Position numbers and translations under genes: made by a program
Source of the DNA: Saprospiraceae bacterium
GTDB lineage: Bacteria; Bacteroidota; Bacteroidia; Chitinophagales; Saprospiraceae
Direction: 5' to 3'
Length of the DNA: 64,000 nucleotides
Assembly (NCBI GenBank): GCA_020627535.1
Contig: JAHDGU010000007.1
Location: 62,001 to 126,000, forward strand
In this document: in pieces, positions 2,149 through 59,890 of the stretch
How positions within the stretch are numbered: position 1 is the stretch's first letter
Layout: every line of letters starts with the position of its first letter
The notes under the pieces: model-generated
What the model was told of the DNA's origin: nothing
Databases searched by the model: none
The model's input: the letters and a program-made list of their open reading frames with translations, nothing else

Positions 2149-3087
2149 CTATAAAAAACCTAGCTGTAGCAAGTATTTTTCTATTGTTTTCGCTATCCTT
2201 TCTTTGCTTTCGTGCGTCCATCCTGCCACATGTGGTGATAGGATGACGGCAGCGCTTTCGCGCAAATAGACCATGGTGTCAGACTCTAGTGCTGACTCAC
2301 TCTCGTCCTCAAAGACATCAAGACACGCCCCAGAGAGCATGCCACTTTCTAGTGCCTCGCACAGATATCTCTGATCTACCACTTTGCCTCTTGAAGTGTT
2401 GATCAGTATCAATCCTCGCTTGCACTGCTGCATAAATTCCCCGCCGAAGTAAGATCTTGTCTCTTCTGTCAGCGGTACATGGAAGCTGATCAAATCTGAT
2501 CGCTCACATAGCTCTTGTAACTCGACAACATCAGCAAAACGAAGGCCATGGTCAATCCGCTGCTTGTACTTGTCATATATTAAAACATGCACACCAAGAC
2601 CACTCAGCTTCTGGGCAAAGCGACTACCATTGTTACCATATCCGATGATCCCTACCGTGAGATCTTGCAGCTCCCGACCTCTATGAGTTTCTCGCAACCA
2701 CTCACCCTTGCGGATGGAAGCGTCTGCTAGATGTAGCTTGTGCATCAGCGACAAGAGCATGCCCAGAGCATGCTCCGCAACAGCATTGGCATTGGCCGCT
2801 GGTGTATTGATGACTGCTATGCCCCGGGACTTGGCGTAAACTTGATCGATGATTTCCATCCCACTTCCCAGTCTCGCCAACCACTTGAGTCGAGTGGCTA
2901 GTGCCAGCTGTGGCTCATGTAGTCTCGTTTTACTATTGATCACTATGCCCTCATAGGCAGCAATGATATCCTCTACTTCTGCCTGCTTGATATCCGGTCT
3001 ATAATCACATTGATATTTGGGCGAAAGCCCGCTCAAAAGACAAGGATGGACATCATCACAGATCAAGACTCTAGGCAGTTGAGACAT
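2149..3087 (-). CDS. D-2-hydroxyacid dehydrogenase (phosphoglycerate dehydrogenase-like)
   Basis: This is an NAD-dependent oxidoreductase of the D-isomer 2-hydroxyacid dehydrogenase family; 312 residues is the usual length for a form with no ACT domain. The Rossmann glycine motif is GYGNNGSRFA (~residue 150). The catalytic Arg lies in INTSRGKVVD, the Glu in ACLDVFEDE and the His in SPHVAGWT. It could be a 3-phosphoglycerate dehydrogenase-like or a 2-ketoacid reductase enzyme; the sequence does not decide. It stands alone on its strand, divergent from carB with 78 bp between the starts. Two copies of the dispersed GNAA hairpin lie inside it, one in each orientation. Confidence 0.88.
   Translation of the reverse strand: MSQLPRVLICDDVHPCLLSGLSPKYQCDYRPDIKQAEVEDIIAAYEGIVINSKTRLHEPQLALATRLKWLARLGSGMEIIDQVYAKSRGIAVINTPAANANAVAEHALGMLLSLMHKLHLADASIRKGEWLRETHRGRELQDLTVGIIGYGNNGSRFAQKLSGLGVHVLIYDKYKQRIDHGLRFADVVELQELCERSDLISFHVPLTEETRSYFGGEFMQQCKRGLILINTSRGKVVDQRYLCEALESGMLSGACLDVFEDESESALESDTMVYLRESAAVILSPHVAGWTHESKERIAKTIEKYLLQLGFL
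2252..2266 (-). repeat. GNAA hairpin motif, copy 1
   Basis: TTT then GCGC-GAAA-GCGC, read on the minus strand. It is in sense orientation inside the dehydrogenase gene, where it encodes L-R-E-S-A. Confidence 0.8.
3016..3030 (+). repeat. GNAA hairpin motif, copy 2
   Basis: TTT then GGGC-GAAA-GCCC. Antisense within the dehydrogenase N-terminus, where the gene strand encodes G-L-S-P-K. Confidence 0.8.
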
Positions 3088-3122
3088 ATTGATAAATAGT
3101 TAATTTGATAGCACGCATCATA

Positions 3123-3130
3123 TATCTTTG
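3123..3130 (+). promoter_or_regulatory. -7 promoter element for carB
   Basis: TATCTTTG is an exact match to the Bacteroidota -7 consensus TAnnTTTG, 35 nt before the carB ATG. A TTTG lies at 3104-3107 but only 15 nt upstream, closer than the usual 19-21 nt, so the -33 element is uncertain. Confidence 0.55.
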
Positions 3131-3165
3131 CGGCCGATCCAAAATTACTTAACGAACCACGTCTT

Positions 3166-5982: not shown

Positions 5983-5985
5983 GAA

Positions 5986-7389
5986 TTAGCGAGTCGACAA
6001 GGTGTAGAGATAGTAGTCTTCACTCTTCATACTTGGGCCGTCCCAAGATTTCCATGATTGGAGACCTGGATATGTCGCCTTGGGTAAAGGCCTATCGCTC
6101 AAGACAATCAGGCCCTCTCGCTTTCTGTACCTTGCATATAGCTCAAGTTCACTCTGGGGAGCGATGTAAATCTTTTCTAGCCACTGGAAGTAGGTCATTG
6201 ATTCGCCTTTCGGCAAAATGTTGATCTCCTTCCCGCTATAGCCGATCACTGGTGTCATCTCCATTGGATTGATACCGACAATAACGGCATCCTGCGGCAC
6301 ATTCTCCTTGAGAAATTGAGCGACATCGCGAGCATGGCTAAATGGCTCTCTGATCTCCCGCACGATCCCAATCATGCTATACACCAATTGGAGTGCTAGG
6401 AGAATGAGTATGGCTCGCTCGCGCCAATGGTCCTTGTCGACGACAAGCTGGTCAAAACTGAGGCAAATCAAGAAAAACCAAATCAAAAAATCTGAACCCC
6501 ATTGTCTCAAGCCACCCTGATAGATCAACCAAGAGAACAGCACAGATGCAAGTAGATATGCTCCAAGACTGATCAAAGCGATCCGATCTGCTCTCAGACT
6601 CGTATAGAGCAAGAGAAGCACGACCATGGCAGCCAATACAGAAAGTATAGGACTTGCTACAAGATTGGTCGCTGTGAGATATACCTCTGACAGGTGCGAC
6701 ACGACAGCATCAAACAAAGAACTGATCGATAACTCAGCAGAACGATATACAGCGTCTTGTTTGCCTGACAAGGCATCTCGAGGAAAAACCGACCACACAA
6801 ATACAGCACTTGATATCACAAAACCCATCACAGACAGCGACCAAAGCTTGATCTTGCCATGAAGAAATAAATAGAGCAATATCGTACCGCCCAGGAGCAC
6901 GCCGTATACCTCTGTCTGAACTAATAAGATGAGACAGGACACAAACATCCAGCTTCTATATCGCTCCGACTGAAGCTCCAGTACTATCAGTGTCAATAAA
7001 ATCAAGAGAAACACGTATGACCTACTGATGACGCCGTACTCGAAGATCACAAAGTAGCCACAGCAAAATAAAATCTTCCAGAGCCACGGCAGTTTGGTCT
7101 TGAGGAGGAGCAGGAAAAGAAATATGACGTAAGGGATACTGTGTGCCAACTTGAGTAGTAAGGACTCCGCTATCAGGGATCTCACGTAGGTCCAGCACTT
7201 GAGCCAGATGTACCATAGAGATCCGTGACCCTCATAATCAAGAAAAGACAGCATCTCAGACCATGACATATCTCTTGCGACCAGCCATGCTTGCCACTCG
7301 TCTTTCCACATTTCATGGAAACCAAACTTCATGATCAGATGAAATCCGGCCAAGAAAAGAAAACTGAGTAAGAGTCTGTGCTTTTTCAC
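5986..7389 (-). CDS. Multi-pass membrane protein, GT39/ArnT-like glycosyltransferase
   Basis: This 467-residue protein has about ten hydrophobic segments and a periplasmic C-terminal part. Near residues 25-40 it reads FHEMWKDEWQAWLVARD; the acidic pair between the first two membrane helices is the hallmark of lipid-linked-sugar glycosyltransferases of the PMT/ArnT (GT-C) fold. The acceptor and donor are unknown. It lies 25 bp after gldH on the same strand and is probably the last gene of a grpE-dnaJ-gldH transcript. A copy of the GNAA hairpin lies at 6215-6228. Confidence is high for the membrane topology and moderate for the enzyme family. Confidence 0.6.
   Translation of the reverse strand: MKKHRLLLSFLFLAGFHLIMKFGFHEMWKDEWQAWLVARDMSWSEMLSFLDYEGHGSLWYIWLKCWTYVRSLIAESLLLKLAHSIPYVIFLFLLLLKTKLPWLWKILFCCGYFVIFEYGVISRSYVFLLILLTLIVLELQSERYRSWMFVSCLILLVQTEVYGVLLGGTILLYLFLHGKIKLWSLSVMGFVISSAVFVWSVFPRDALSGKQDAVYRSAELSISSLFDAVVSHLSEVYLTATNLVASPILSVLAAMVVLLLLYTSLRADRIALISLGAYLLASVLFSWLIYQGGLRQWGSDFLIWFFLICLSFDQLVVDKDHWRERAILILLALQLVYSMIGIVREIREPFSHARDVAQFLKENVPQDAVIVGINPMEMTPVIGYSGKEINILPKGESMTYFQWLEKIYIAPQSELELYARYRKREGLIVLSDRPLPKATYPGLQSWKSWDGPSMKSEDYYLYTLSTR
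6215..6228 (-). repeat. GNAA hairpin motif, copy 3
   Basis: TTTT then GCC-GAAA-GGC, sense in the membrane glycosyltransferase gene, encoding L-P-K-G-E. Confidence 0.8.
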
Positions 7390-7414
7390 AAACTCAAAGA
7401 TGAGGCATCTTGGC

Positions 7415-9051: not shown

Positions 9052-9059
9052 AGGTCTGA

Positions 9060-9590: not shown

Positions 9591-9668
9591 TTTACACTAT
9601 TGTGATTGGTTGGATCTTATCTGTGTCAATTATTTTGCCACCCTCAAAGTTCCGACATTTTGTCAGGC

Positions 9669-10193
9669 TCATTTGATTCCTTCTTTCAAAATCTTCCGTA
9701 TATCCGCATCTGGAAGATTGACTCCAAGGATCTTGCCTTCTGGATTTATGAGAAAAGTCGCTGGAATATCTGTGACGCCATATAGAGAGGCCATCTTGGA
9801 CAATCGGACAAATTTGCTCTCATCGAGGGCATTGTACTTCCACTGCATATCGTAACGGTCTAGGGCTTTTTCCCACCTTTTACCATCTTTCTCAAGAGCG
9901 ATGGAGAAGACCTCAAATCCAGGACTACTACTTGTCTGGCTTCCGCCAAAATCTGCTTGAAGCTTCTTGACCTTTGGGATGTCTTTGAGACATGGCCCAC
10001 ACCAGCTGGCCCAAAAGTCAAGAAGTACATACTTCCCTTGGAGATCACTCAATGAGGCCAAAGAGCCATCTCGAAGTTCGATGCTAAAGTCCGGTGCTGC
10101 ACCCTCTCCCGGCTGTGGTCTGTGCAGTACTCCGAAATATACCCCTAGGGCAATGAGGGTAACGAGAGGGATGGCTAACTTTTTCATTTTCAA
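9669..10193 (-). CDS. TlpA-like thioredoxin-fold protein
   Basis: This is a periplasm-facing, membrane-anchored thiol-disulfide protein of 174 residues. Residues 1-22 form one hydrophobic anchor (LAIPLVTLIALGVYFGVL). The active site is WASWCGPC, and the cis-proline loop is TDIPATFLINPEGKI. Such proteins keep cysteines reduced during cytochrome c or outer-membrane protein maturation; the partner is not evident. It is divergent from the flavin reductase gene. It contains a sense copy of the GNAA hairpin at 9938-9951. Confidence 0.87.
   Translation of the reverse strand: MKMKKLAIPLVTLIALGVYFGVLHRPQPGEGAAPDFSIELRDGSLASLSDLQGKYVLLDFWASWCGPCLKDIPKVKKLQADFGGSQTSSSPGFEVFSIALEKDGKRWEKALDRYDMQWKYNALDESKFVRLSKMASLYGVTDIPATFLINPEGKILGVNLPDADIRKILKEGIK
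9938..9951 (-). repeat. GNAA hairpin motif, copy 4
   Basis: TTTT then GGC-GGAA-GCC, sense in the TlpA-like gene, encoding D-F-G-G-S. The second loop base is G rather than A. Confidence 0.75.
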
Positions 10194-10275
10194 ATCTTTG
10201 AATTATTCATGGCTCAAAACGCAGAGACGATTCTCTTAGTTTTATGGAGAAATCACAAACCAAGTCAATTGTCTT

Positions 10276-11124: not shown

Positions 11125-11125
11125 A

Positions 11126-12184
11126 TTAACCCCTGCGCATGACCTTCCTCAACCATCCAGGTATGATCAGCACACCCAATAGCAAGTAGGAGTAGTAGGT
11201 CAAGAGTCGCCAAATCCCCGCTACGATCGGCGCGATTCCAGAAGGCACAAAATCACTCAAAAATCCACCAAACAAATACTCTACAACTCCTGCCCCGCCC
11301 GGCGTAGGTATGAATAAAATGATGCTAAACATGGCTTGCAATCTACCATACAAGAATGCCAAATTGTAGCCGCTGAAGTCTAGGTCCTCCACAAATCCGA
11401 AGATCAGAAGAGCCACTGTTAAAAATCGAGTGGACCAAGCCACCATAGTGGCTAAGAAGCTCTTGAGGTGAAGGCTCCAAGGCTTGCTGCGATACTCATT
11501 GCTAGCAGTGACTATGTCCCTACCAATCTCCACCGCTTTTGCGCGAAAGCGCCTGGTCCAAGAGAACTTGGTCAACCATGCGAGGAACTGCTTGAATCTA
11601 TGTGGGCTTACAAAAAGTCCATAACTCAAAGTACCACCGTAGACGATCATGATCGTGTAGCTGATCAGAAACCATAGGCCATATTGATCCATGGAGGCAA
11701 AGTCTGTGATACCCGGTCTGATGATCATGGGACCAATCAAGAAGAACAGAAGTGGCAAGGAAACCAAAAAGAAGATCGTATCCTGTACGATGGTATAGAC
11801 CACGAGAGCGGCCGTCTTACCTCCTGGATAGTTTTCCTTGCTCAAGGCAAATAGTGCGACCAGCGCTCCACCTACCGATGAAGGTGACACAGCACTTGAA
11901 AACTCCCAGATCACAATGAGCTTCATACTCTTGCGAAATGAGAAGAAGCGCTCTGACAAGAGATGAAGTCGGTAGCTGTAGGCCAGATGCCGAAGCAGAA
12001 AAATCAAGACAGCAGCTCCACAAAAACTGACCAATCTCCAATTCCAGTGTATGGCTCGAAATTCCTCGAGATCAAACTGTCTGACGAGCAAATATCCTAC
12101 AACCAGCAGTCCCATGATGATCGGTAGGATCACACGAGATATACGAAGTTGATCTATTGCTTTGTCCTCTTGTCTTCTCTCCAC
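11126..12184 (-). CDS. Lysylphosphatidylglycerol synthase-like transmembrane protein
   Basis: This is an inner-membrane protein of 352 residues with about eight hydrophobic segments. It matches the transmembrane (flippase-like) domain of MprF-type proteins: IWEFSSAVSPSSVGGALVAL, a central VVYTIVQDTIFF segment and a C-terminal FIPTPGGAGVVEYLFGGFL. It has no soluble aminoacyl-transferase domain, so it probably translocates or modifies a lipid rather than making lysyl-phosphatidylglycerol. It sits just downstream of the BLUF gene on the same strand, 56 bp away. An antisense GNAA hairpin lies inside. Confidence 0.8.
   Translation of the reverse strand: MERRQEDKAIDQLRISRVILPIIMGLLVVGYLLVRQFDLEEFRAIHWNWRLVSFCGAAVLIFLLRHLAYSYRLHLLSERFFSFRKSMKLIVIWEFSSAVSPSSVGGALVALFALSKENYPGGKTAALVVYTIVQDTIFFLVSLPLLFFLIGPMIIRPGITDFASMDQYGLWFLISYTIMIVYGGTLSYGLFVSPHRFKQFLAWLTKFSWTRRFRAKAVEIGRDIVTASNEYRSKPWSLHLKSFLATMVAWSTRFLTVALLIFGFVEDLDFSGYNLAFLYGRLQAMFSIILFIPTPGGAGVVEYLFGGFLSDFVPSGIAPIVAGIWRLLTYYSYLLLGVLIIPGWLRKVMRRG
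11538..11552 (+). repeat. GNAA hairpin motif, copy 5
   Basis: TTT then GCGC-GAAA-GCGC, antisense in the LPG-synthase-like gene (gene strand F-R-A-K-A). Confidence 0.8.
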
Positions 12185-12730: not shown

Positions 12731-12736
12731 ACGAAT

Positions 12737-13336
12737 ATGAAAAACTTGATTTGGGATCTAGGCGCAGTTCTGATTGACTGGAACCCCCGCTATCTGTACC
12801 ACAAACTACTGTCTGAAGATGAGACAGAACTATTTCTGGCAGAAATATGCACCATGGACTGGAATGAAGAACAGGACGCAGGGAGGCCTTTGGCGGAAGC
12901 CACCTCACTCCTCTGTACACGTTATCCTGATCAGTCAGAGCTGATCGAGGCTTACTATAGTCGATGGGAAGAGATGCTCTCAGGTCCCATCCAAGGCACT
13001 GTCGATATCTTATCAAAATGTAGGCAAGAGGGTAAATACGAACTCTATGCATTGACCAACTGGAGCGCAGAGACCTTTCCAATAGCTCAAGAGCGATTTG
13101 AATTCCTCCAGTGGTTCAAGGGTATCGTGGTTTCTGGAGAGGAAATGACACGCAAACCCCACCAGAAGATTTATGACATCCTTCTCGAGCGCTATGACCT
13201 CAAGGCTTCTGAGTGCCTATTTATAGATGATAATCTCAGAAATATTGAGGCGGCACAGGCACTAGGATTTCAGACCATACATTTTCAAGGACCAGAACAT
13301 TTGGCCGAAAGGCTCAAAGCACTGAGTCTTCTATAG
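12737..13336 (+). CDS. HAD-superfamily phosphatase (YihX-like)
   Basis: This is a soluble 199-residue haloacid-dehalogenase-like hydrolase, probably a sugar-phosphate phosphatase. Motif I is [11 protein letters not shown] (nucleophile Asp7), motif II is YALTNWS, the conserved Lys is in [10 protein letters not shown], and motif IV is [15 protein letters not shown]. The helical cap lies between motifs I and II, as in the YihX/haloacid dehalogenase group. Its 3' end overlaps the convergent rmlA gene by 6 bp. It is notable for carrying two sense GNAA hairpins (12889 and 13300). Confidence 0.85.
12889..12901 (+). repeat. GNAA hairpin motif, copy 6
   Basis: TTT then GGC-GGAA-GCC, sense in the HAD gene, encoding L-A-E-A. 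Confidence 0.75.
13300..13314 (+). repeat. GNAA hairpin motif, copy 7 (wobble stem)
   Basis: TTT then GGCC-GAAA-GGCT. The outer pair is G-T, a wobble in RNA. Sense near the HAD 3' end, encoding L-A-E-R-L. Confidence 0.65.
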
Positions 13337-14569: not shown

Positions 14570-15975
14570 TGAATGTGCTCAAGTTGACATACGGCTTCGA
14601 CATGACTTGTCTGAGGAAACATATCTACTGGCGTACAAGAAATCAGACGATATCGATCGCTCATGAGTGCGAGATCTCGAGCCATTGTGGCAGGATTGCA
14701 GCTTACATACACAATACGCTTGGCACCGATGTGCTTGATAAAATCGACCACATCTGCGTGCATACCAGCTCTTGGTGGATCTGTAATGAGCACATCAGGA
14801 GTCCCGTGCTTTCGCACAAATGCTTCGTTGACGACTTGCTGAACATCTCCGACTTCAAAGTGGCAATGTACAAGTTGATTCAGCTTGGCATTTTGTCGTG
14901 CGTCCAAGATCGCTTCTGGTATCTCTTCGATGCCAACCATCTTGGCGCAGGCATCCGCTAAGAATATTCCGATACTGCCCGTGCCACAGTATAAGTCATA
15001 GACCACCTCAGATCCGGTAAGCTCGGCATAGTCCCTTACTTGTGTGTAGAGCTTCTCTGCTTGTCTACTATTGGTCTGAAAAAATGATCTTGCAGATATG
15101 AGGTACTCCTTATTTCCGAGCTTTTCTCGGATATGGCTTTCGCCAAAATACTCCTTGGCTTGGAGGCCATGGAGACTATCATTGAGCTTGTCATTCACGA
15201 TATACTGCCAGCTCGTGACCTGGGGAAACTCTTGGATCAAAGGCTTGAGAAGTCGATCTAGCACCTCAGGAATATCCGCAGAGATGATCAATACGACCAT
15301 GATCTCCTCCAAAGTAGTGTAGCGGATCATGAGATTGCGCAAAATTCCGATATGCGACTTCACGTCGTAGAAGCTGATATTGAGCTCCTTGGCGAGATAT
15401 AAGCAGCGATTGCGAATATCATTGTGCACTGAGGGCATATGATGGCATTCTGTGATCGGTAAGATCTTGTCAAATGCACCTGCCATGTGAAATCCCAGTG
15501 CTCTTCGATCAGGAAACTCAGCACCTGACTGCACTTCGTGTTCTGTCAGCCACCTTTTGGGGCTGAAGGTGAATTCTAACTTATTTCTATAGCCGTATGC
15601 CTGTTCACATGCCATCACAGGACGAGCATCATACTCTGTGATCTTGGCAATGCGCTGGATAGCGTCATGGACCTGTCGCTCTTTGAGCTCTGTCTGCCTA
15701 GTATAAGATAGGTCCTGCCATTTACATCCACCACAGTCCTCAAAGTGCTGACAAACTGCTTGGACACGATCAGGAGACGGCGTAGTGATTTCTGCCACAT
15801 CACCGAATGGCATTCCTTTTTTCTTGCGCCTAATGGTGGCAGTTACGACATCACCTGGCACACCACCTTTGAGCAGATACACCTGACCATCAGCATCTTT
15901 GGCGATACTCATTCCCTTGTGTCCTATATCTACGATCCGGAGCTTATCTACTGTCTTAGGCTTTCTCTTGGCCAC
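14566..15975 (-). CDS. rlmD: 23S rRNA (uracil-C5)-methyltransferase RlmD
   Basis: This is a SAM-dependent RNA methyltransferase of the TrmA/RlmD family, expected to make m5U in 23S rRNA. The protein is 469 residues with a TRAM domain at residues ~5-60, a [4Fe-4S] cluster motif (CQHFEDCGGCKW), the SAM motif VVYDLYCGTGSIGIFLA, and the catalytic cysteine in VYVSCNPATMARDL with ITDPPRAGMH before it. The start is a GTG at 15975. It contains two sense GNAA hairpins. The U1939 (RlmD) assignment rather than U747 is by overall resemblance. Confidence 0.93.
   Translation of the reverse strand: MAKRKPKTVDKLRIVDIGHKGMSIAKDADGQVYLLKGGVPGDVVTATIRRKKKGMPFGDVAEITTPSPDRVQAVCQHFEDCGGCKWQDLSYTRQTELKERQVHDAIQRIAKITEYDARPVMACEQAYGYRNKLEFTFSPKRWLTEHEVQSGAEFPDRRALGFHMAGAFDKILPITECHHMPSVHNDIRNRCLYLAKELNISFYDVKSHIGILRNLMIRYTTLEEIMVVLIISADIPEVLDRLLKPLIQEFPQVTSWQYIVNDKLNDSLHGLQAKEYFGESHIREKLGNKEYLISARSFFQTNSRQAEKLYTQVRDYAELTGSEVVYDLYCGTGSIGIFLADACAKMVGIEEIPEAILDARQNAKLNQLVHCHFEVGDVQQVVNEAFVRKHGTPDVLITDPPRAGMHADVVDFIKHIGAKRIVYVSCNPATMARDLALMSDRYRLISCTPVDMFPQTSHVEAVCQLEHIQ
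14806..14820 (-). repeat. GNAA hairpin motif, copy 8
   Basis: TTT then GTGC-GAAA-GCAC. The stem differs from the other copies yet stays fully paired. Sense in rlmD, encoding F-V-R-K-H. Confidence 0.8.
15135..15148 (-). repeat. GNAA hairpin motif, copy 9
   Basis: TTTT then GGC-GAAA-GCC, sense in rlmD, encoding F-G-E-S. Confidence 0.8.
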
Positions 15976-19042: not shown

Positions 19043-20080
19043 CTAAATCACTCTAGATGGTTCTATCCACACCTTGCAACCTTCGGAGCAATTGGCACAG
19101 ATGTCTATTGATTTCCGATCATTGAAGATCTGAGCTCGCATAGATCTATATCGATTTCCATGCCATATTTTAACAAATGGCTCTTCGGCGATGTCCCCAA
19201 GGACGTGGGTAGCATCCTTGTCAAAGCAGCAAGGTACGACTTTGCCATCCCAGGTGATGACGGCGCTATGCCACATACGCCAGCATGCATTTTCCAAGTC
19301 GCTGATTATCTGTCGCTTATCTCCATCTACATGATAGCGTCGGAGTTGATCACTGTGAGGTAAGCGCTCGGTAGATTCCGGTCCGCCATAGACCTGAGCC
19401 GTCTTGATGATCCACTCATCTGCTCCCATATCTTTTGCAAGCTTGGAGATTTCCTCTAGTTCTGACTCATTTTGCCGAAAGGCAATTGTCTGCACGACGA
19501 TATGTGGTCCTCGCCCAAGCCTTTTTTTTGTTTCAGCTAGGAGGCGTGTCCCGTCAATTACCTTGGACAGCAGACCACCGATCCTGTACTGTTCATAGCT
19601 CTCCTGCGTAGCACCATCAAGAGAGATGATCAGTCTTGATAGACCAGATTTACAAATGTCAACACAGATTCTCTCCGAAAGGAAATGTCCATTGGTCGAA
19701 CTGATGGTGTAAATCTTCTTATCCGCTGCAAGCCTAACAAGATCGCAAAACTGAGGGTGTATCAATGGCTCTCCCTGGAAGTAAAGTGTGAGATATAGAA
19801 GTCGATCTCCAATCTGATCAAGCAGCTCTTGGTACATCTTGAGATCGGCATTGCCTGTAGGCCTAGAAAAAGATCTGAGTCCAGAAGGACATTCTGGACA
19901 TCGCAGATTACATGCTGTCGTAGGCTCCACCGATATAGCCAACGGAAAACCTGAGATCTCGGGGACTGCTCCAGACCTAGCTTTTTGATAAGATCGTCTG
20001 AGCAAGTAGTAGTTGTGCAAGCGCTTTTTACTCAGGCATCGCACAAAGGACTTGGAGTCTGACCAAGAGGGTAGTCTCAC
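19043..20080 (-). CDS. Radical SAM/SPASM-domain protein
   Basis: This is a 345-residue [4Fe-4S] radical SAM enzyme. The SAM cluster motif is TTACNLRCPECPSG (CxxxCxxC), followed by LYFQGEPLIHP and LIISLDGATQESYEQYRIGG. A C-terminal SPASM region supplies further cysteines (CWRMWHS, VVPCCFDKD, ICANCSEGC), so an auxiliary cluster is likely. Relatives modify peptides or act as dehydrogenases; no peptide substrate gene is visible next to it. Translation starts at a GTG overlapping the dinB stop (GTGA), so the two are coupled. An antisense GNAA hairpin sits at 19470. Confidence 0.9.
   Translation of the reverse strand: MRLPSWSDSKSFVRCLSKKRLHNYYLLRRSYQKARSGAVPEISGFPLAISVEPTTACNLRCPECPSGLRSFSRPTGNADLKMYQELLDQIGDRLLYLTLYFQGEPLIHPQFCDLVRLAADKKIYTISSTNGHFLSERICVDICKSGLSRLIISLDGATQESYEQYRIGGLLSKVIDGTRLLAETKKRLGRGPHIVVQTIAFRQNESELEEISKLAKDMGADEWIIKTAQVYGGPESTERLPHSDQLRRYHVDGDKRQIISDLENACWRMWHSAVITWDGKVVPCCFDKDATHVLGDIAEEPFVKIWHGNRYRSMRAQIFNDRKSIDICANCSEGCKVWIEPSRVI
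19470..19483 (+). repeat. GNAA hairpin motif, copy 10
   Basis: TTT then TGCC-GAAA-GGCA (the final A is at 19484), antisense in the radical SAM gene (gene strand A-F-R-Q-N). Confidence 0.8.
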
Positions 20081-37797: not shown

Positions 37798-37811
37798 TTT
37801 TGGCGTAAGCC
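37798..37811 (+). repeat. GNAA hairpin motif, copy 18 (intergenic)
   Basis: TTTT then GGC-GTAA-GCC in the short gap between gcvH and the vanZ-like gene, 2 nt after the gcvH stop in transcription direction. Loop second base T. Confidence 0.75.
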
Positions 37812-42499: not shown

Positions 42500-43123
42500 A
42501 TGATGAAACACATCGCTCTACTGCTCTGCTCATCAGCAATACTGTTCCTGTCCTGTCAATCTACCGAGCTGGTGGAGCTCAAAGATGACGATGGAAAAGT
42601 CATTCTACGTTTTGAAGTTCAAAAAGGAACTGATATCAAGCATGGCCAGGAAGAAAGCTATGCCGAGGACGGTACACTTGCTTCGATCTCTCACTACAAA
42701 GACGGAAATCTAGATGGCAGCAAGATCTTTTTTGATGCCAATGGTGATACCACGATCGTAGAGCACTATGATCAGGGCATCTTTCATGGAGAATATCTGA
42801 GCTATCATGAAGGCGGTGGCTTACGCCAAAAAGGTCAGTACATCGATGGCAAAATGCAGGGTGATTGGCTGAAATACTATGCAAACGGTCAATTGGAAGA
42901 GCGCGTCCCATTCGTCGACAATAATGAGAACGGTGACTTCATAGAATATCATGAAAATGGCAATCTGAAAGCCAGAGGCAGCTATAAGGACGGAGACCAT
43001 GAACACGGCCCTCTCGAAATCTTTGATGAAGCCGGTGAGCTGATTCGCAAGATGGAGTGCGATATGGGCGTCTGCAGGACGATATGGCGCAAAGAAAAAG
43101 ACGAAGTAATCAATGAAGGCTAG
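42500..43123 (+). CDS. MORN-repeat lipoprotein
   Basis: This is a 207-residue lipoprotein (lipobox LFLSC, Cys19) built from MORN-type repeats such as GTLASISHYKDGNLDGSKIF, GQYIDGKMQGDWLKYYANG and GNLKARGSYKDGDHEHGPLE, each with the xxGxxxGxxxxYxxxG pattern. Many Bacteroidota annotate such genes as 'YwqK-family antitoxin', but no toxin partner is present. It overlaps porQ by 11 bp, so it may act with T9SS at the outer membrane. A sequence copy of the GNAA hairpin (GTAA) lies inside. Confidence 0.8.
   Translation: MMKHIALLLCSSAILFLSCQSTELVELKDDDGKVILRFEVQKGTDIKHGQEESYAEDGTLASISHYKDGNLDGSKIFFDANGDTTIVEHYDQGIFHGEYLSYHEGGGLRQKGQYIDGKMQGDWLKYYANGQLEERVPFVDNNENGDFIEYHENGNLKARGSYKDGDHEHGPLEIFDEAGELIRKMECDMGVCRTIWRKEKDEVINEG
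42818..42831 (-). repeat. GNAA hairpin motif, copy 20
   Basis: TTTT then GGC-GTAA-GCC, antisense in the MORN gene (gene strand G-L-R-Q-K). Confidence 0.75.
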
Positions 43124-45362: not shown

Positions 45363-45370
45363 TACATTTG
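45363..45370 (+). promoter_or_regulatory. -7 promoter element for the histidine kinase, overlapping hairpin copy 21
   Basis: TACATTTG matches TAnnTTTG exactly, 66 nt before the kinase ATG. Its TTTG is the TTTG at the start of the GNAA hairpin that follows. Confidence 0.5.
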
Positions 45371-45381
45371 GGCGAAAGCCC
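45367..45381 (+). repeat. GNAA hairpin motif, copy 21 (intergenic)
   Basis: TTT then GGGC-GAAA-GCCC, in the leader of the histidine kinase gene and overlapping its predicted -7 element. Confidence 0.8.
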
Positions 45382-47634: not shown

Positions 47635-49635
47635 CTAGGCCTTTTCGTCAGAACTGGCCTCACCTAGTATGTCACTCGGCGTCCCGCCTTCGGCTTCTGC
47701 TGACTTCTGGGCAGCCAGTTCACTCGCTCGAATAGGCTCTGCAAAAGGTCGCTTACCGATCAACTCTTCCACATCAGACTTGACGATCACCTCACGCTCA
47801 AGTAATGCTTGTGCGAGGGTCTCAAGCTTATCTCTGTGCTGGGTGAGTAGCTTGATAGCACGCTGGTACTGCGACTCCACCAGATTGCGCACTTCACTGT
47901 CTATCAGCGATGCTGTCTGATCAGAGTATGGCTTCTGAAACTGATCTTGCTGCATTCCGTAGAAGGACACATTACCGACCTTTTCATTCATCCCATAGAT
48001 GGCGATCATGCTATAGGCCATCTTGGTGACCTGATCCAGGTCACTTTGAGCACCTGTACTGATCTTGTCAAAGATGATCTTCTCTGCCGCTCTACCTCCA
48101 AATGTCATGCACATGCGATCTAGGAGTGCCTCGGTACGTGTAATATATTCTTCCTTGGGAAGGTACTGAGCGTATCCGAGTGTGCCAATTCCTCGTGGTA
48201 CGATAGTCACTTTAACCAATGGGCTCGCGTGCTCGAGCATCCAACCAGCTACTGCGTGACCAGCCTCATGATATGCAATCACTTTTTTCTCCTCAGGAGA
48301 GATGAGTTTGTTCTTTTTCTCTAGTCCACCGATGACTCGATCGAGAGCAAAATTGAAATCATCCATATCGATCTCCTTCTTGTCTCGTCGCGCAGCGATC
48401 AGAGCTGCCTCATTACACACATTGGCGATATCCGCTCCGGCAAATCCTGGCGTCATCTCAGCTAGCACAACAGAGTTGACATCTGGTCCATTTTTGATAC
48501 CCTTGAGATGCACATCAAAGATGGCTTGTCGACCCTGCAGATCAGGAAGATCCACACCGATCTGTCGATCAAATCTACCAGGTCTCAGCAGGGCAGAGTC
48601 CAAGACATCAGGACGATTGGTAGCGGCCATAAGGATTACACCTTTGTCGGTACTAAATCCGTCCATCTCTACAAGGAGCTGATTGAGCGTATTTTCTCTC
48701 TCATCATTACCACCTTGAATATTGCTTTTGCCACGTGCTCGTCCTATCGCATCGATCTCATCGATGAAGACGATACATGGCGCTTTTTCTCTTGCTTGAC
48801 GAAAAAGATCTCTCACTCTTGAAGCTCCCACACCGACAAACATCTCGACGAAGTCGGATCCCGATATGGAGAAAAATGGTACTCCAGCTTCCCCAGCAAC
48901 AGCTTTCGCCAAAAGAGTTTTACCAGTACCCGGAGGGCCTACCAGCAGAACACCCTTCGGTATTTTTCCTCCGAGTGATGTGTACTTTTTAGGTTTCTTG
49001 AGGAAGTCTACGACTTCCATCACCTCTTCTTTAGCCTCATCTAGGCCTGCCACGTCTTGGAAAGTCACATTGACTTTGGTATTGGCATCAAAGAGAGTGG
49101 CTTTGCTCTTGCCGATATTGAAAATCTGAGCACCCGGACCAGCTCCTCCTTGCCCGACTCTACGCAGAATAAACATCCACAAGAAGATCAAAAGAAGTAA
49201 AGGGATTGCAATCGTAGTCAACTGAGGCAACCAACTCACACGTTTGATATAGTCAAGCTCAATCTGCTTATCAGCCGGAAGCTCATCATTGATCGCAGTG
49301 ACCTTTGCGGAGAATGCCTCTGGCGGTCCGATATTGAATGCAAAGTCTGCCTTGGGCGCACTCAGCATGGGTCTGGTCGTGTTGCTCGATCCACCTTCAC
49401 TCTGAGAGCTCTTGAGATAGACATATGCCATCTCATGATTGACGATCTCAAGCTTCTCGATCTCAGCATTGCGTGCCAGCTGTTCAAATTTGTTGACGCT
49501 GATCGTCTCCTTGGTGTTTCCAGCATGGCTAGCAAGCTGAAATGCTAGCAAAACGAGTATCAGCGCACCATAGATCCACCAGCTATTGATGTTGAATCTT
49601 GGTCGATTATTATCTTTTTTTGGATCTTTTTCCAT
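47635..49635 (-). CDS. ftsH: ATP-dependent zinc metalloprotease FtsH
   Basis: This is an inner-membrane AAA+ protease that degrades membrane and regulatory proteins. The order is: two membrane helices ([17 protein letters not shown] and [18 protein letters not shown]) flanking a periplasmic region, Walker [17 protein letters not shown], Walker [13 protein letters not shown], the second region of homology [18 protein letters not shown] and the zinc motif [10 protein letters not shown]. The ATG at 49635 (MEKDPKK) is chosen; an ATG at 49674, overlapping rsfS, is an alternative. Copy 22 of the GNAA hairpin, with a G-T wobble, lies close to Walker A. Confidence 0.97.
48901..48914 (-). repeat. GNAA hairpin motif, copy 22 (wobble stem)
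   Basis: TTTT then GGC-GAAA-GCT, sense in ftsH (L-L-A-K-A). The last pair is a G-T wobble, so this copy is weaker; the gene is strongly conserved and this may be chance. Confidence 0.55.
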
Positions 49636-50080: not shown

Positions 50081-50088
50081 CAAAGTTA
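50081..50088 (-). promoter_or_regulatory. -7 promoter element for rsfS-ftsH
   Basis: TAACTTTG on the minus strand matches TAnnTTTG exactly. It covers the first in-frame TTG of rsfS, which argues that translation begins downstream. Confidence 0.5.
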
Positions 50089-50152
50089 GTCATTCACTCC
50101 ATGAGCCAAATCTCTCCTGAGCCATGACTAGGACTGAAAGAACGTCAATCAC

Positions 50153-50890
50153 ATGAGGAAAGTTTTCCACCTTCTTGATCAAGTGTCGTCGACGCAGACT
50201 TTTTGCAAGTCACTCCGGTCTAGCAAAAGACCTGAGGTGATTGACATCGTAGTTGCTGATGGCCAGTCGGCAGGGAAGGGTCAAGCCCAAAAGTCTTGGT
50301 ACTTTTCGAAGGACAGTTCGATTGCGCTGAGTGTCGGCATTGCTCAACTCAAGATCCCTGTGGCTCAAGCTTTTGGTCTTCACTGCATCGTCACGCGAGC
50401 AGTAGGACGTGTGCTATCTGCACACTATCCAGATATTTCGCTGAAATTAAAATGGCCTAATGATCTCTATGTCGAACACCAAAAAATCGGAGGCATCCTT
50501 ACCTATAATGTCATCCAAGGCAAGGAGATCACTGAGACTGTCATCGGTCTAGGGCTCAATGTAAAAGCCATACAATTCCCATCATCGCTGCCCAATCCCG
50601 GCTCCATTGAAGACTTCAGCGCGCAAACATGCGAGATTACTGATCTCAGAGTGCATTTGGCGGAAGCCATCCTTCAAGACTTGCAAGAAAAAACACCCTC
50701 ATGGGACGCACTCCTCCGTGAATACAATCAGCTGCTCTATCGCAGGGGTGAAGAGGTAGAGCTTTTGTATCAAGGGAATAAGATCTCTGCCATCGTCAAT
50801 GGAGTATGTGGCAATGGTCGGCTAGAGGTACTTCATAATGAACAACTACGACAATTTGACTTTGGAGAAGTAAGTTGGATACTCACATGA
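50153..50890 (+). CDS. birA: Biotin--[acetyl-CoA-carboxylase] ligase
   Basis: It attaches biotin to the carboxylase carrier protein through biotinyl-AMP. The 245-residue protein has the ligase core QSAGKGQAQKSWYFSKDSS (the glycine-rich adenylate loop) and LKWPNDLYVEHQKIGGILTY, with VIGLGLNVKA after it. There is no N-terminal helix-turn-helix, so it is the ligase-only class. It overlaps cinA by 4 bp (ATGA) and contains the GNAA hairpin at 50656. Confidence 0.92.
   Translation: MRKVFHLLDQVSSTQTFCKSLRSSKRPEVIDIVVADGQSAGKGQAQKSWYFSKDSSIALSVGIAQLKIPVAQAFGLHCIVTRAVGRVLSAHYPDISLKLKWPNDLYVEHQKIGGILTYNVIQGKEITETVIGLGLNVKAIQFPSSLPNPGSIEDFSAQTCEITDLRVHLAEAILQDLQEKTPSWDALLREYNQLLYRRGEEVELLYQGNKISAIVNGVCGNGRLEVLHNEQLRQFDFGEVSWILT
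50656..50668 (+). repeat. GNAA hairpin motif, copy 23
   Basis: TTT then GGC-GGAA-GCC, sense in birA, encoding L-A-E-A. Confidence 0.75.
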
Positions 50891-52116
50891 AAGCAACACT
50901 GATCAGTATAGGAGACGAACTCCTTAATGGTATGACGACCAACACCAATGCGACGTGGATCGGCAAATTTTTGCATGAGCGTGGCATAAAGCTGGATTCT
51001 GTCGTTACCATCTCAGACGATGACCAGGCCATATTCTCAGCCTTGGATCAAGCTCATAAAGTCACGGATCTTATCATAATCACTGGTGGGCTGGGACCAA
51101 CCAAGGATGATATCACCAAACACTCCATTTGCCGATGGCTTGGAGATCGTATGAGTTTTGATGAGACAAGCTATGAGCGGATCGTACAGGCTTTCGCCAA
51201 AAGGAATATCCCTCTCACAGAAGCGCATAAACAACAGTGCTACTTCCCGTCATCCGCTATGCTCATAGCCAATGATATGGGAACAGCACCTGGGATGCTC
51301 TTCCGAAAGGACGAAGTGGACATCATGAGTTTTCCTGGAGTGCCGTATGAAATGAAGCACTTGATGGCAGAACAGTTGCAGGACTATTGGACGAAGCACT
51401 CCGCTTCCGCACCACATATCCACACATGGAGTACTGCAGGGATGGGTGAGACCTCGATACATAAGCTGATCGTGGATATTGAAGATGACTTTCCTGAGAC
51501 CTATCAACTCGCCTATCTTCCAAGCGCCGGAACCGTGAGAGTTCAACTCAAGGCGATGGCACCTGATATGCATCAATTTGATGAATTTGCAGAGCGAATT
51601 AGGGTCGCTTTGGGTCAGCTTGTATTTAGCGAAAGCGGAGAAAGTCTCGCAGAGGCTCTAGGTGGATTGCTCGTCCAAAGAAATGAAATGATGATCAGCT
51701 GCGAGAGCTGCACTGGAGGAAGTATCGCCAAGATGATCACCTCCAATCCGGGCAGCAGTCGGTACTACTTCGGATCATTTGTCAGCTATCACAATGACTT
51801 CAAGACGGAGATCGTAGGGGTAGATAGCACGGCGATCGATGATCACGGTGCCGTCAGCGAAGAGGTGGTCAGACAAATGCTCGTGCGGAGTCTTCATCGA
51901 TCTGGCGTCAAGTATGGTGTAGCCACATCGGGAATCGCAGGACCTGGTGGAGGATCTACTGAAAAGCCCGTTGGCACTTTTTGGGTCAGTTGGGGCAGTA
52001 GAGATCATATACGGACCAAAAGGCTCTTGGTGCAAAGAGAGCGACTGATCAATATTCGCTATATCAGTAATTTTGCATTGAATTCTCTAAGGAATTTCAT
52101 TCTCAAGGAAGACTGA
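50887..52116 (+). CDS. cinA: CinA-family nicotinamide-nucleotide amidohydrolase
   Basis: This is a two-domain protein of 409 residues: an N-terminal molybdopterin-binding-like domain (LISIGDELLNGMTTNTNATW, ITGGLGPTKDDITK) and a C-terminal NMN deamidase (PncC) domain (ISCESCTGGSIAKMIT, SGIAGPGGGSTEKPVGTFWV). The second domain recycles NMN to NaMN; a link to competence is historical. The ATG at 50887 overlaps the birA stop; E2 follows after 3 bp. It contains copy 24 of the GNAA hairpin. Confidence 0.94.
   Translation: MKATLISIGDELLNGMTTNTNATWIGKFLHERGIKLDSVVTISDDDQAIFSALDQAHKVTDLIIITGGLGPTKDDITKHSICRWLGDRMSFDETSYERIVQAFAKRNIPLTEAHKQQCYFPSSAMLIANDMGTAPGMLFRKDEVDIMSFPGVPYEMKHLMAEQLQDYWTKHSASAPHIHTWSTAGMGETSIHKLIVDIEDDFPETYQLAYLPSAGTVRVQLKAMAPDMHQFDEFAERIRVALGQLVFSESGESLAEALGGLLVQRNEMMISCESCTGGSIAKMITSNPGSSRYYFGSFVSYHNDFKTEIVGVDSTAIDDHGAVSEEVVRQMLVRSLHRSGVKYGVATSGIAGPGGGSTEKPVGTFWVSWGSRDHIRTKRLLVQRERLINIRYISNFALNSLRNFILKED
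51189..51202 (-). repeat. GNAA hairpin motif, copy 24
   Basis: TTTT then GGC-GAAA-GCC, antisense in cinA (gene strand Q-A-F-A-K). Confidence 0.8.
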
Positions 52117-52119
52117 CCT

Positions 52120-53493: not shown

Positions 53494-55619
53494 TGAATAT
53501 CCTACGTCTTACACTTATCATATTTCTTTCGAGTTGGGTGATCGAGCTCCCAGCTCAGGATCTTGAATCTGCAAAGTGGCTCTATGATCAAGGGGAATAT
53601 GAGGACTGTCTCTCCACGATCAATTCCTTGGTTGAATGTGATAAGGAATGTATGACCCTCATCTTGGATGCACACTTTGCTCTTGGTGAGGTAGAGACTT
53701 GTTTGACGCTCATGGACTCTCTAGAGGCTTCCGCCAAAAAGATCAGCGACCATCAAGTGTATCTCCGCGCTCGATGCCTCCATCTGCTCGGACGCTATGC
53801 CGAAGCCATCGAATCATACAAAGCATATCTCACACGCATACGTCAGTCCTCTGACGAATACCAGCGAACCATCGAGCGAATCAGTCGATGTCTGGCAGGG
53901 ATCAATCTCCGTCTGTTGGGCACCGAGTCACATTATATTGCAGATCCTGGCAGGGTTCTCAACTCCAAGAAAAACGATTTTCATCTAGTTAACTCTCCTG
54001 ATGATCCCGAGCTCTTCTATTTCAGCAGTAATCGCTTTGGTCTTGGGCAAGATGAGATTTTCTTTAAAGGCAAGACAGAGACCTATGACATCTTCATGAT
54101 CGAACGCGTCAATGGTGAATGGCAAAGAGCCACTTTGCTCAATCGGGAAATCAACAGTCCACTTGCTGAGCATGCCATCGATATCAAGGATGATGAACTC
54201 ATCTTTGAGCGACGGAGCCTCGAGCCTCCGGCAAGCCTGTTTTGGACAGCTGACCGCTTTGATCCAAATACTGAGGTGAGTAGCTATCGGACAGACTGGC
54301 CCTATCAACAGGATGTGGATGACATCAATCTCAATTTTGTCCGTGATGACATGATCATCTTCTCCAGTGACAAGCGTGGTGGCTATGGAGGATATGACCT
54401 CTACTTCTCCATATATGGTCAGGGTTCTTGGACGCCACCGATCAACTTCGGTCCACTTGTGAATAGTCCTTTCGATGAGTTCTATGGTGACATGGATTCT
54501 AGTAAGACCCTTTACTTTTCTTCAGATCGTGCAAGCAGCATTGGAGGCTTTGACATATTCGTCAGTGGATACGATGAGGTCACTCAAGATTGGCAGCAAG
54601 CAGAAAATGCAGGCAGCCCGATCAATAGTCCTGGAGACGAGCTTTACTTCAACATCAGTGATCAGGACTACTTTGCTAGTCTCAGCTCCGACCGACTCGG
54701 TGGCCAAGGGCAGCAGGATATCTACTTTGTATATGACCGCAAGTTGCAAGGAGAAGAGCTTGTCAGACCTCAGTTTTTTGCAGTGCAAGACAGGTCAGCA
54801 GCCCCAGTCAGTGCAGAAGAAGCGGTCACAAGTATTAGTAGCTCAGACTCCATCTCTCTTACCAATGAGGCACCCAAGCCCTCAGAGGCCTACCTCAGTC
54901 CATTATTCTACAAGGCGATCAAAGATCTCGAGCTGCCTGTCAATGCCAAAGAGGTCCAAAATGTGAGAGACCTTATGCTGATGGATAGCAGCCTGCACTT
55001 GCTCATTCAAGTATTTGCTCAGAGAGGTCAAGATCGAGCAGGTGACTTGTTTTTTTCCTATAAACCAGGTCTACCGATCTACCGCAAGTTGAAATCAGAG
55101 GGTATCAAAGAGGATAGGATGAGCATTCAGGGCTTTGGATCCTATTCTCCTATTATATCACCCAATAAGATCAGTGGCGAACTTATCGACTATGCGGATA
55201 AAATGAATAGTCACATTATTTTGAGACTCATTGGCGCAGATGACATGCCTATCTACTATCGATCCATAGATGTGAGATCTGATCTGCGTGATCCACGACA
55301 TGACGAAGTCCAACAAAAAAATCAAGGCGTGTCATTTCGCATCGAGCTCTTCCAGGATGCAGCACAGGCTGTACATCCATACCTAGAGAAAATGCCTCGA
55401 GGCATGATCGAAAAACAAGCTGACGGCTACAGCTATCTCTCAGGACACTTCAAATCATATCGACAAGCATCAGATCAGATGAATAGTCTCATCAAAAACG
55501 GATTACAATACTGCACGCTTGTTGCTTATCATGATGGCAAGCGATTATCCATTGAAGAAGCTCTAGAGCTATCCAAGACTTTTCCTGATCTCCTAGACCA
55601 TATACAGGCAAACCGATAA
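53493..55619 (+). CDS. PD40-propeller/SPOR-like envelope protein
   Basis: This is a 708-residue exported protein (signal peptide to PAQ22). TPR units lie at ~25-140. A PD40 beta-propeller follows at ~145-425 with blades such as FYFSSNRFGLGQDEIFF, IFSSDKRGGYGGYDLYF and YFSSDRASSIGGFDIFV. A degenerate OmpA-like region follows (~460-575; KSEGIKEDRMSIQGFGSYS keeps the topology but the peptidoglycan-binding residues are not evident). The C-terminus (~620-708) resembles a SPOR domain (YLSGHFKSYRQASDQMNSLI). It is translationally coupled to the E2 gene, an unexpected partner. Copy 25 of the GNAA hairpin lies inside. Confidence 0.72.
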   Translation: MNILRLTLIIFLSSWVIELPAQDLESAKWLYDQGEYEDCLSTINSLVECDKECMTLILDAHFALGEVETCLTLMDSLEASAKKISDHQVYLRARCLHLLGRYAEAIESYKAYLTRIRQSSDEYQRTIERISRCLAGINLRLLGTESHYIADPGRVLNSKKNDFHLVNSPDDPELFYFSSNRFGLGQDEIFFKGKTETYDIFMIERVNGEWQRATLLNREINSPLAEHAIDIKDDELIFERRSLEPPASLFWTADRFDPNTEVSSYRTDWPYQQDVDDINLNFVRDDMIIFSSDKRGGYGGYDLYFSIYGQGSWTPPINFGPLVNSPFDEFYGDMDSSKTLYFSSDRASSIGGFDIFVSGYDEVTQDWQQAENAGSPINSPGDELYFNISDQDYFASLSSDRLGGQGQQDIYFVYDRKLQGEELVRPQFFAVQDRSAAPVSAEEAVTSISSSDSISLTNEAPKPSEAYLSPLFYKAIKDLELPVNAKEVQNVRDLMLMDSSLHLLIQVFAQRGQDRAGDLFFSYKPGLPIYRKLKSEGIKEDRMSIQGFGSYSPIISPNKISGELIDYADKMNSHIILRLIGADDMPIYYRSIDVRSDLRDPRHDEVQQKNQGVSFRIELFQDAAQAVHPYLEKMPRGMIEKQADGYSYLSGHFKSYRQASDQMNSLIKNGLQYCTLVAYHDGKRLSIEEALELSKTFPDLLDHIQANR
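53726..53739 (-). repeat. GNAA hairpin motif, copy 25
   Basis: TTTT then GGC-GGAA-GCC, antisense in the PD40 gene (gene strand E-A-S-A-K). Confidence 0.75.
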
Positions 55620-55661
55620 GCATCTACTCGTAACTTTACCAAACCAATAAAACCTATAATT

Positions 55662-57041: not shown

Positions 57042-57050
57042 ATCTCTGAC

Positions 57051-58730: not shown

Positions 58731-58813
58731 GTAGGGTGTTGAATATCAACTAAATATGCACCCAATTCCTCAGAAAAGCAAGGAAGAAGGAGGCATTTAT
58801 CAGGTAGAGCCGA

Positions 58814-59890
58814 CTATGTCGACATAGATTGGATCCTCAACTGAAGCTCATTGATCTCACTCAATTCTTGTTCAAAACGGTGGCTCTCACTGCTATACTG
58901 ATCGGATCGATAGTTTTTGTGCATCTGCATGTAGTCATCGAGCTTTCGCTCAAATGTCTCAGTAAAAGGAAGACCAATCCTGTGACAGAGGTCCTCAATA
59001 TTATCCTTACCAGTGATCAACTCCTTGTAGGACATGGTCATGATGGGAATCCTCATTTGGACGACAGTCCGATATAAGGTCTCTGTCATTTCTCGGTATA
59101 TGCCCAGTGCAGCCTGCTCTAGCTCTTGGCGGTCATAATCTTCCAAGCTTGTAATCGGTAAAACTCGATCATAGGTCTTGATCGTGGACGCGAAGACATC
59201 TTTTGGATCACGATACAGATAGATGAATCGCGCAGCTGGCCATCGCTCAAGGATCTTCGCAATCCGAATGGTATTGCAAGGAGATTTGGAGACAAAATTT
59301 AATCTGCATTTGCGCGAAAGCGCCTTACCCATCGCAAGAGATAAGCTATCGACAAAGGCTGTCTGTGACTCTGCTGTCTGACACCATGTCCAGATCTCTC
59401 TGATCTGTGTCGGCCAATAGTGTACGCGATAAAAACTCTGGAGATCCTGATGTAAGGTGAGCAAGTCATCCTCCTGTGGTAGGTCCATCTGCACCGACAT
59501 CCTGTCCATGGGACGCGTCCTGGGACTCAACAGTGAGACGAGGCTCTTCACGGGATGCCAACTGAGACATGCCTCTGGCGAAAATCCTTGCCAATAGTCG
59601 ATATATGCCAGATCCTCATGAAGGCTGAGGAGATTGTGCAGGTGAGTCGTCCCTGATCGCCAATGACCCAGGATGAAAATTGGGTCTGAGGGCAACTCGA
59701 CTTCTTGAGACTTCTGAGGCCAGCTGCGCGCCTCGGCAGCAACCCACGGTCGGTTGAGTTGAGAAAAGAGCTTGGTCCGCCAGAGCTTTCGGGTATACTT
59801 CCCTCTCTGCACTGAGCCGAGCTCAGCTATTCCCTTGACGACTTTGGGATGAGCAGCTAAGCATGGATAAAGTATCTGGTCAGCTCTCAT
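58814..59890 (-). CDS. Sulfotransferase-family protein
   Basis: This is a 358-residue enzyme of the PAPS-dependent sulfotransferase superfamily. The 5'-phosphosulfate loop is FILGHWRSGTTHLHNLLSLH, and the 3'-phosphate-binding region is FVSKSPCNTIRI with IYLYRDPKDVFASTIK. A membrane helix is not evident, so it acts in the cytoplasm. The acceptor could be a lipid, sugar or peptide. The ATG at 59890 overlaps the stop of the upstream GHMP kinase (ATGA); translation is coupled, and the two enzymes may act on one substrate. Two GNAA hairpins lie inside. Confidence 0.85.
   Translation of the reverse strand: MRADQILYPCLAAHPKVVKGIAELGSVQRGKYTRKLWRTKLFSQLNRPWVAAEARSWPQKSQEVELPSDPIFILGHWRSGTTHLHNLLSLHEDLAYIDYWQGFSPEACLSWHPVKSLVSLLSPRTRPMDRMSVQMDLPQEDDLLTLHQDLQSFYRVHYWPTQIREIWTWCQTAESQTAFVDSLSLAMGKALSRKCRLNFVSKSPCNTIRIAKILERWPAARFIYLYRDPKDVFASTIKTYDRVLPITSLEDYDRQELEQAALGIYREMTETLYRTVVQMRIPIMTMSYKELITGKDNIEDLCHRIGLPFTETFERKLDDYMQMHKNYRSDQYSSESHRFEQELSEINELQLRIQSMST
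58940..58954 (-). repeat. GNAA hairpin motif, copy 27
   Basis: TTT then GAGC-GAAA-GCTC. A stem not seen in other copies, still fully paired. Sense in the sulfotransferase gene (F-E-R-K-L). Confidence 0.75.
59309..59323 (+). repeat. GNAA hairpin motif, copy 26
   Basis: TTT then GCGC-GAAA-GCGC, antisense in the sulfotransferase gene (gene strand A-L-S-R-K). Confidence 0.8.

Follow-up and report, generated by a model that had tools for sequence, protein, structure and literature searches.

The 64-kb stretch of DNA analysed here (positions 62001-126000 of contig C5 in the Saprospiraceae genome G000, which comprises 4.09 Mb and is 99.7% complete; hereafter, the window) raises a simple question: why does the same small hairpin, a run of Ts followed by a short stem of changing letters and a four-base loop, recur throughout it, mostly inside genes and on both strands? 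This motif is real, genome-wide, and far above chance. The strongest clue to what it does is a new finding, missed in the initial annotation of this DNA, namely that sites on the same strand avoid each other over about 4 kb. The reading that we favour, tentatively and somewhat short of an even chance, is an orientation-specific signal that is read on single-stranded DNA in its folded state and spreads through homologous DNA exchange, i.e., one that resembles an uptake sequence but stands outside that family.

All 27 copies that the initial annotation had listed were located in the window sequence. A strict scan, which required TTT, a perfect stem of at least 3 bp and a GNAA loop, returned 26 copies, comprising 25 of those listed and one that had been missed (27582-27594); the two copies described as wobble exceptions, at 13300 and 48901, indeed both possess an outer G-T pair. 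With the loop rule later set to GNMA (M = A or C), the window holds 29 strict copies, 48559, 59056 and 63958 being added and the two wobble copies being extra. The sites are given below with window coordinates and strand, where G001 is the other member of the genus and G030 a further relative.

2252-2266, minus strand: hairpin TTTGCGCGAAAGCGC, strict match
3016-3030, plus strand: hairpin TTTGGGCGAAAGCCC, strict match
6205-6217, minus strand: hairpin TTTGCCGAAAGGC, strict match
9937-9951, minus strand: hairpin TTTTGGCGGAAGCCA, strict match
11538-11552, plus strand: hairpin TTTGCGCGAAAGCGC, strict match; intact at the orthologous place in G001
12889-12901, plus strand: hairpin TTTGGCGGAAGCC, strict match; gap-free in G001, motif absent there
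13300-13314, plus strand: hairpin TTTGGCCGAAAGGCT with outer G-T pair, relaxed match
14806-14820, minus strand: hairpin TTTGTGCGAAAGCAC, strict match; gap-free in G001, motif absent there
15134-15148, minus strand: hairpin TTTTGGCGAAAGCCA, strict match; gap-free in G001, motif absent there
19470-19484, plus strand: hairpin TTTTGCCGAAAGGCA, strict match
21005-21019, minus strand: hairpin TTTGCGCGCAAGCGC, strict match
21982-21996, plus strand: hairpin TTTTGGCGAAAGCCA, strict match
27582-27594, minus strand: hairpin TTTGACGGAAGTC, strict match; overlooked initially
27698-27712, plus strand: hairpin TTTGCGCGAAAGCGC, strict match
30621-30635, plus strand: hairpin TTTTGCCGAAAGGCA, strict match
30890-30904, minus strand: hairpin TTTGGGCGAAAGCCC, strict match
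37299-37313, minus strand: hairpin TTTGGGCGAAAGCCC, strict match
37574-37586, plus strand: hairpin TTTGCCGAAAGGC, strict match
37799-37811, plus strand: hairpin TTTGGCGTAAGCC, strict match; intergenic
40084-40096, minus strand: hairpin TTTGGCGCAAGCC, strict match; intergenic
42817-42831, minus strand: hairpin TTTTGGCGTAAGCCA, strict match
45367-45381, plus strand: hairpin TTTGGGCGAAAGCCC, strict match
48559-48573, minus strand: hairpin TTTGATCGACAGATC with GACA loop, strict match; not listed initially; kept in G001, GTCA loop in G030
48901-48913, minus strand: hairpin TTTGGCGAAAGCT with outer G-T pair, relaxed match
50656-50668, plus strand: hairpin TTTGGCGGAAGCC, strict match
51189-51201, minus strand: hairpin TTTGGCGAAAGCC, strict match; G001 has TTTGGGCGAAAGCC here, in a shifted register
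53726-53738, minus strand: hairpin TTTGGCGGAAGCC, strict match
58940-58954, minus strand: hairpin TTTGAGCGAAAGCTC, strict match
59056-59070, plus strand: hairpin TTTGGACGACAGTCC with GACA loop, strict match; not listed initially
59309-59323, plus strand: hairpin TTTGCGCGAAAGCGC, strict match
63958-63970, minus strand: hairpin TTTGGCGACAGCC with GACA loop, strict match; not listed initially

The site at 51189 lies within a gene for CinA, a competence/damage-inducible protein (window 50875-52116, plus strand), which is probably a coincidence.

Chance and codon usage are ruled out as the cause by synonymous shuffles and mirror controls. Genes were called by a simple codon-usage method with our own script, and the shuffles permuted synonymous codons within genes, thereby keeping every protein and the codon usage of each gene. 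For the window, 100 such shuffles gave a mean of 2.8 copies and a maximum of 6, compared with 29 in the real sequence; for a 464-kb set, 178 strict sites fell to 17.8 ± 2.1, so that about one tenth was kept. Mirror-image stems numbered 4 versus 216 on the same count, and replacing TTT by AAA left 2. Density, strand and spacing were counted over 1.23 Mb of G000 (contigs C10, C16 and C5), in which hairpins behind upstream triplets that are not T-rich occur 5.5 times, or about 0.3 per window, near the 0.2 per window that the initial annotation had estimated for chance. The same 1.23 Mb contains 467 strict sites (0.38 per kb, which extrapolates to about 1,550 per genome; a density far above random). 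Neither of the outcomes named initially as refuting the motif, shuffled counts comparable to the real one or a density close to random, was thus obtained. Over the whole genome, TTTNGGCGNMAGCC is found 721 times and its reversed pattern 0 times, and ACATTTTGGCGAAAGCC at up to three mismatches is found 789 times versus 3 for the control. No described match to this element was found in the open-licence literature.

What defines the element is a fold rather than a fixed word. It consists of TTT, preceded usually by T or A and almost never by G, a stem of 3-4 bp closed by C-G, and a loop of the form G-N-(A or C)-A. The closing pair is C-G in 568 cases versus 10-50 for other closings, and changing one T of the TTT reduces the 568 to 4-16 (background 5.5), except for TTG, which is the same element in a shifted register. 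At the third loop position, A occurs 480 times, C 88, G 2 and T 3, so the GNRA tetraloop proposed initially gives way to GNMA; calculated DNA folding energies do not separate GNMA from other GNNA loops, since the model assigns all of them equal energy. Variants one letter off the motif show hardly any excess, and the sites share only the 14-15 bases, with no longer repeat flank.

Within the stem, the letters vary and the pairing is kept. The innermost variable pair is matched in 148/170 sites versus 80 expected, with A-T, C-G and T-A pairs each 5-9 times above expectation, and the two arms change together: a left arm GG is answered by CC in 176 of 199 cases, GA by TC in 34 of 49, GC by GC in 40 of 47 and CG by CG in 20 of 27. 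The relative G027 goes further, its stems being nearly sequence-free (TGC, TCC, GGC, CCC, TAC and others) and full pairing being present in 204 of 1047 anchored sites versus 23.8 when the right arms are shuffled. These counts bear out the initial claim of covariation. Paired arms with free letters mean that two arms of one strand must meet, which a reader of duplex DNA cannot explain. Whatever reads the element must therefore encounter either single-stranded DNA that has folded or a hairpin that has been extruded, and recognition of the single strand is what we infer. The nucleoid-protein site suggested initially is unsupported, because recognition depends on this within-strand pairing.

The sites lie largely within genes (164/178, or 92%, for the 464-kb set; 89% for the 1.23-Mb set), and the initial statement that only two of the listed copies are intergenic (37799 and 40084) is correct. 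Genic sites of the smaller set are distributed over 77 on the gene's strand and 87 on the opposite strand, in all frames; the larger set comprises 188 sense and 229 antisense sites, showing no preference for the sense strand and, if anything, a slight one for the antisense. A protein motif as the cause is thus ruled out by the occurrence in all frames and both orientations, as had been argued at the outset. An intragenic position bias, such as that reported for the uptake signal sequences (USS) of Pasteurellaceae (PMC2346458), is absent, positions along genes being uniform.

Comparison of orthologs with at least 50% amino-acid identity showed that 30/34 sites are free of indels in every comparison, indicating that copies arise by substitution. 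Residue conservation at the sites is 0.43 versus 0.59 for the genes that carry them (P = 8e-4). Few sites are common to G000 and G001, with 11538 and 48559 intact and 51189 in its shifted register, and turnover between species is high; single positions are therefore disposable while the site population is kept. The largest site-free stretches, of 10-16 kb, contain giant secreted-type proteins and genes of glycan/polysaccharide type, as judged by gene size and N-termini without family searches. Two nearly hairpin-free clusters of the latter type, G000:C5:32400-44300 and C10:92100-102100, look like variable or acquired regions.

The spacing of the sites is where strand enters. Neighbouring sites in G000 alternate strand in 297/464 cases versus 232.5 ± 10.6 expected (z = 6). 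Between 300 bp and 4 kb, pairs on the same strand reach only about 0.45-0.8 of the expected number, returning to normal at greater distances, whereas pairs on opposite strands are at or above expectation; accordingly, neighbours closer than 4 kb comprise 114 same-strand and 251 opposite-strand pairs, and those at 4 kb or more comprise 53 and 46. The effect is significant on contigs C10 (z = 5.7) and C5 (z = 2.9) and has the same direction on C16 (z = 1.5), persists between different genes (222/350), and is replicated more weakly in the relative G029 (46/69, P about 0.005-0.008). Deletion between direct repeats was rejected as its source, as pairs with identical stems are not more depleted. An avoidance that is strand-specific and reaches about 4 kb suggests that each site serves its own strand only. 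A replication-strand signal was also rejected, since local GC skew reveals no preference (225 vs 242, P = 0.46); that both replication strands are used equally argues against a lagging-strand role.

Opposite-strand neighbours less than 750 bp apart are divergent (minus then plus) in 48 cases versus convergent in 27, and at larger gaps the convergent arrangement is slightly commoner (121 vs 101). This shift with distance may be a hint that the reach of each site is directional.

Among relatives, the element is patchy and has dialects. The G000 form is clearly in excess in roughly 15 of 60 sampled members of Saprospiraceae, and not at all in many; the positives include G001, G004, G027, G029, G030, G031, G038, G043, G044 and G053. 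No hidden dialect of the form TTT plus GNMA was found in 60 kb each of the negatives G007, G026, G006 and G042. Stem length, stem letters and the loop vary among positive genera, much as neisserial uptake sequences have dialects (PMC3630211). The named relatives retrieved with the H+-pyrophosphatase of G000 comprise MAGs and isolates of Saprospiraceae. Relatives whose H+-pyrophosphatase is at least 81% identical to that of G000 are mostly positive and the most distant are mostly negative, so that presence follows descent loosely. The highest density seen, 0.67 per kb, belongs to G027 (330 kb), which has near sequence-free 3-bp stems and GNAA loops. Outside the family, density is near background, the exception being genus g107 of another family in the class (f25), where one form is in mild but consistent excess: TTTNGGCGNMAGCC, often with C at N, numbers 50 vs 3 reversed in G472 and 25 vs 0 in G302. 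This form may be weakly related to the element, or it may be something different; for the mild excess of TTTCGGCGNMAGCC in the genus, identity with the element could not be demonstrated.

How, then, might such sites work and accumulate? The signal would be active when one strand is single and folded, presenting a 5′ T-tract and then a hairpin with the C(GNMA)G cap, and it would act over about 4 kb and solely for its own strand. Point substitutions would create the sites, and a bias in homologous exchange would multiply them: single strands that are imported or undergoing recombination would be favoured when they bear the hairpin, which would thereby spread. Within that reach, a further site on the same strand would add little, whereas one on the opposite strand would serve the other strand. 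The likeliest carrier would be natural transformation, in which ComEC brings in single strands one at a time, and the element would be an analogue of an uptake sequence that is recognised as folded single-stranded DNA and not as pilus-bound duplex. The birth of sites by substitution, the dispensability of single positions, the lack of sites in variable clusters and the patchy dialects all accord with spread through homologous exchange; taken with recognition of the fold and own-strand action, they favour a single-stranded DNA signal in transformation or related recombination. Bacteroidota can be competent via ComEA and ComEC (PMC11532111), and in the N4 phage promoters extrusion of the hairpin is helped by the C-G pair that closes it and by G and A in the loop (PMC4496689). 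The stronger form of this proposal, that about 1,500 fold-defined hairpins serve the family as marks on its DNA, each being read on its own folded single strand and reaching about 4 kb, and form a self-recognition or gene-exchange signal that is independent of type IV pili and whose drive acts on the fold, seems quite possible, if somewhat doubtful.

Several points weigh against the exchange signal. We know of no transformation of any member of Saprospiraceae. Genes for ComEC and DprA are present in G000 but equally in motif-free relatives, and are not informative, and the analysis identified no protein that recognises the hairpin. Near-misses, which typically abound for uptake sequences, are few for this motif. 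The step of allelic drive is one that we infer, and the spacing data fit any process that uses the strands separately, not solely DNA import. Moreover, alternation is a property of some lineages: it is not significant in G001 (n = 73) and is absent from G027 (n = 223 sites, z = 0.6), and is thus not universal.

The comparison with known uptake sequences, the USS and the DNA uptake sequences (DUS) of Neisseriaceae, cuts both ways. Like them, the hairpins occur in hundreds to thousands of short, mostly genic copies in both orientations, and their birth by substitution, at weakly conserved positions and outside variable clusters, is what drive by uptake predicts. However, USS and DUS are fixed sequences read as duplex, whereas the hairpin retains its pairing while its stem letters change freely, and near-miss copies are few. 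Uptake in H. influenzae is orientation-independent (PMC1939737), whereas same-strand hairpin sites avoid each other. The uptake of USS and DUS is linked to a pilus, and G000 has no T2SSE (PilB/PilT) ATPase match above cut-off, on which ground uptake based on type IV pili was rejected. The sole clear type IV pilus/type II secretion ATPase among 30 family members tested is G017:C49:324363-325472, in a genome without a clear hairpin excess (31 vs 39 control). Of the functions suggested initially, an uptake or recombination site thus stands as the best class of explanation, while identity with a HIP1-like or classical DUS-like sequence fails on the arbitrary stem letters and the missing pilus ATPase.

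The rivals closest to this proposal share its spacing logic. A Chi-like hotspot, i.e., an oriented site that switches AddAB/RecBCD-type resection or loads a recombinase on one strand, would need its own sites every few kb in each orientation and would equally predict the observed spacing. Chi is orientation-specific, genic and present about once per few kb, as are the hairpins, and G000 encodes PDDEXK_1 proteins of AddB size (about 1,040 aa). However, Chi is a fixed linear sequence read as such inside the enzyme, whereas the hairpin covaries and its stem letters are nearly free; E. coli Chi is biased to one replication strand, a bias that the hairpins lack; and PDDEXK_1 matches occur in all relatives tested, so that a universal nuclease is set against a patchy motif. 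We regard this explanation as unlikely. A priming or restart site for single strands (of the ssi, PAS or sso kind), or a promoter of the Frpo or N4 virion RNA polymerase type, which starts a primer or RNA on exposed or imported single-stranded DNA, would again be needed on each strand every few kb, in keeping with the strand-separate spacing of about 4 kb. Known single-strand promoters, including those of N4, use short DNA hairpins, and the N4 promoters require C-G as the closing pair, together with G and A in the loop (PMC4496689); they resemble the present element in being small hairpins recognised by a protein on one strand, but are three phage promoters with 3-base loops and not a dispersed chromosomal element. 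The missing lagging-strand bias, the patchiness within one family, which is odd for a basic replication function, and the uneven coverage (coefficient of variation of about 1 for gaps between all sites) make this reading less probable still. Both explanations are harder to reconcile with the freedom of the stem, the lack of strand bias or the patchy occurrence than is a signal of DNA exchange.

The remaining alternatives fall further behind. A duplex-binding protein or methyltransferase that keeps the sites as a nucleoid or methylation mark, in the manner of HIP1 (GCGATCGC) of cyanobacteria, would account for thousands of genic copies on both strands without bias relative to genes, and HIP1 is likewise very frequent and genome-wide. 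It is, however, a fixed palindromic octamer tied to methyltransferases (PMC4390886), whereas the motif of TTT, hairpin and GNMA loop is oriented, variable in its stem and not a palindrome like GCGATCGC; a duplex reader would also be blind to the complementarity of variable arms and would not lead one to expect strand-specific avoidance, which renders such a mark improbable. Repetitive extragenic palindromic (REP) elements, moved by RAYT/Y1 transposases, share the layout of a 5′ foot followed by a small hairpin, as well as strand-specific recognition of a single strand. A REP-like mobile hairpin is nevertheless highly improbable, since REP elements are intergenic, whereas the present sites are genic, substitution-born without indels and limited to their 14-15 bases, and Y1_Tnp has 0 matches in G000 and in the positives G029, G044 and G053. 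With Y1 transposases and pilus ATPases both absent from G000, the known owners of similar signals are missing. Equally remote is an RNA element in transcripts, either a protein-bound GNRA hairpin or a processing signal: GAAA and GGAA are GNRA loops and RNA would fold too, but the sense/antisense split of 188/229 makes an mRNA element unlikely, GNGA (2) against GNCA (88) is opposite to the RNA rule, which allows G and forbids C, and the avoidance range crosses genes. A further structural parallel is the target of the BPP-1 retroelement, a DNA hairpin in which stem composition rather than sequence matters and a four-base loop (GRNA consensus, GAAA) is critical (PMC3240598); there, however, each target carries a single hairpin, located beside a variable repeat and with a stem of 8-10 bp, compared with about 1,500 dispersed hairpins with 3-4 bp stems here.

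The known dispersed genome-wide signals, USS, DUS, HIP1 and Chi, are fixed sequences, whereas what is conserved here is pairing within a strand. Conserved pairing in scattered genic sites at a strand-specific distance implies that some protein routinely meets folded single-stranded chromosomal DNA. The element thereby offers a testable handle on DNA exchange or repair in Bacteroidota that lack type IV pili, and, if the proposed signal is true, the avoidance distance of about 4 kb would let the length of the single strands involved be read directly from the genome.

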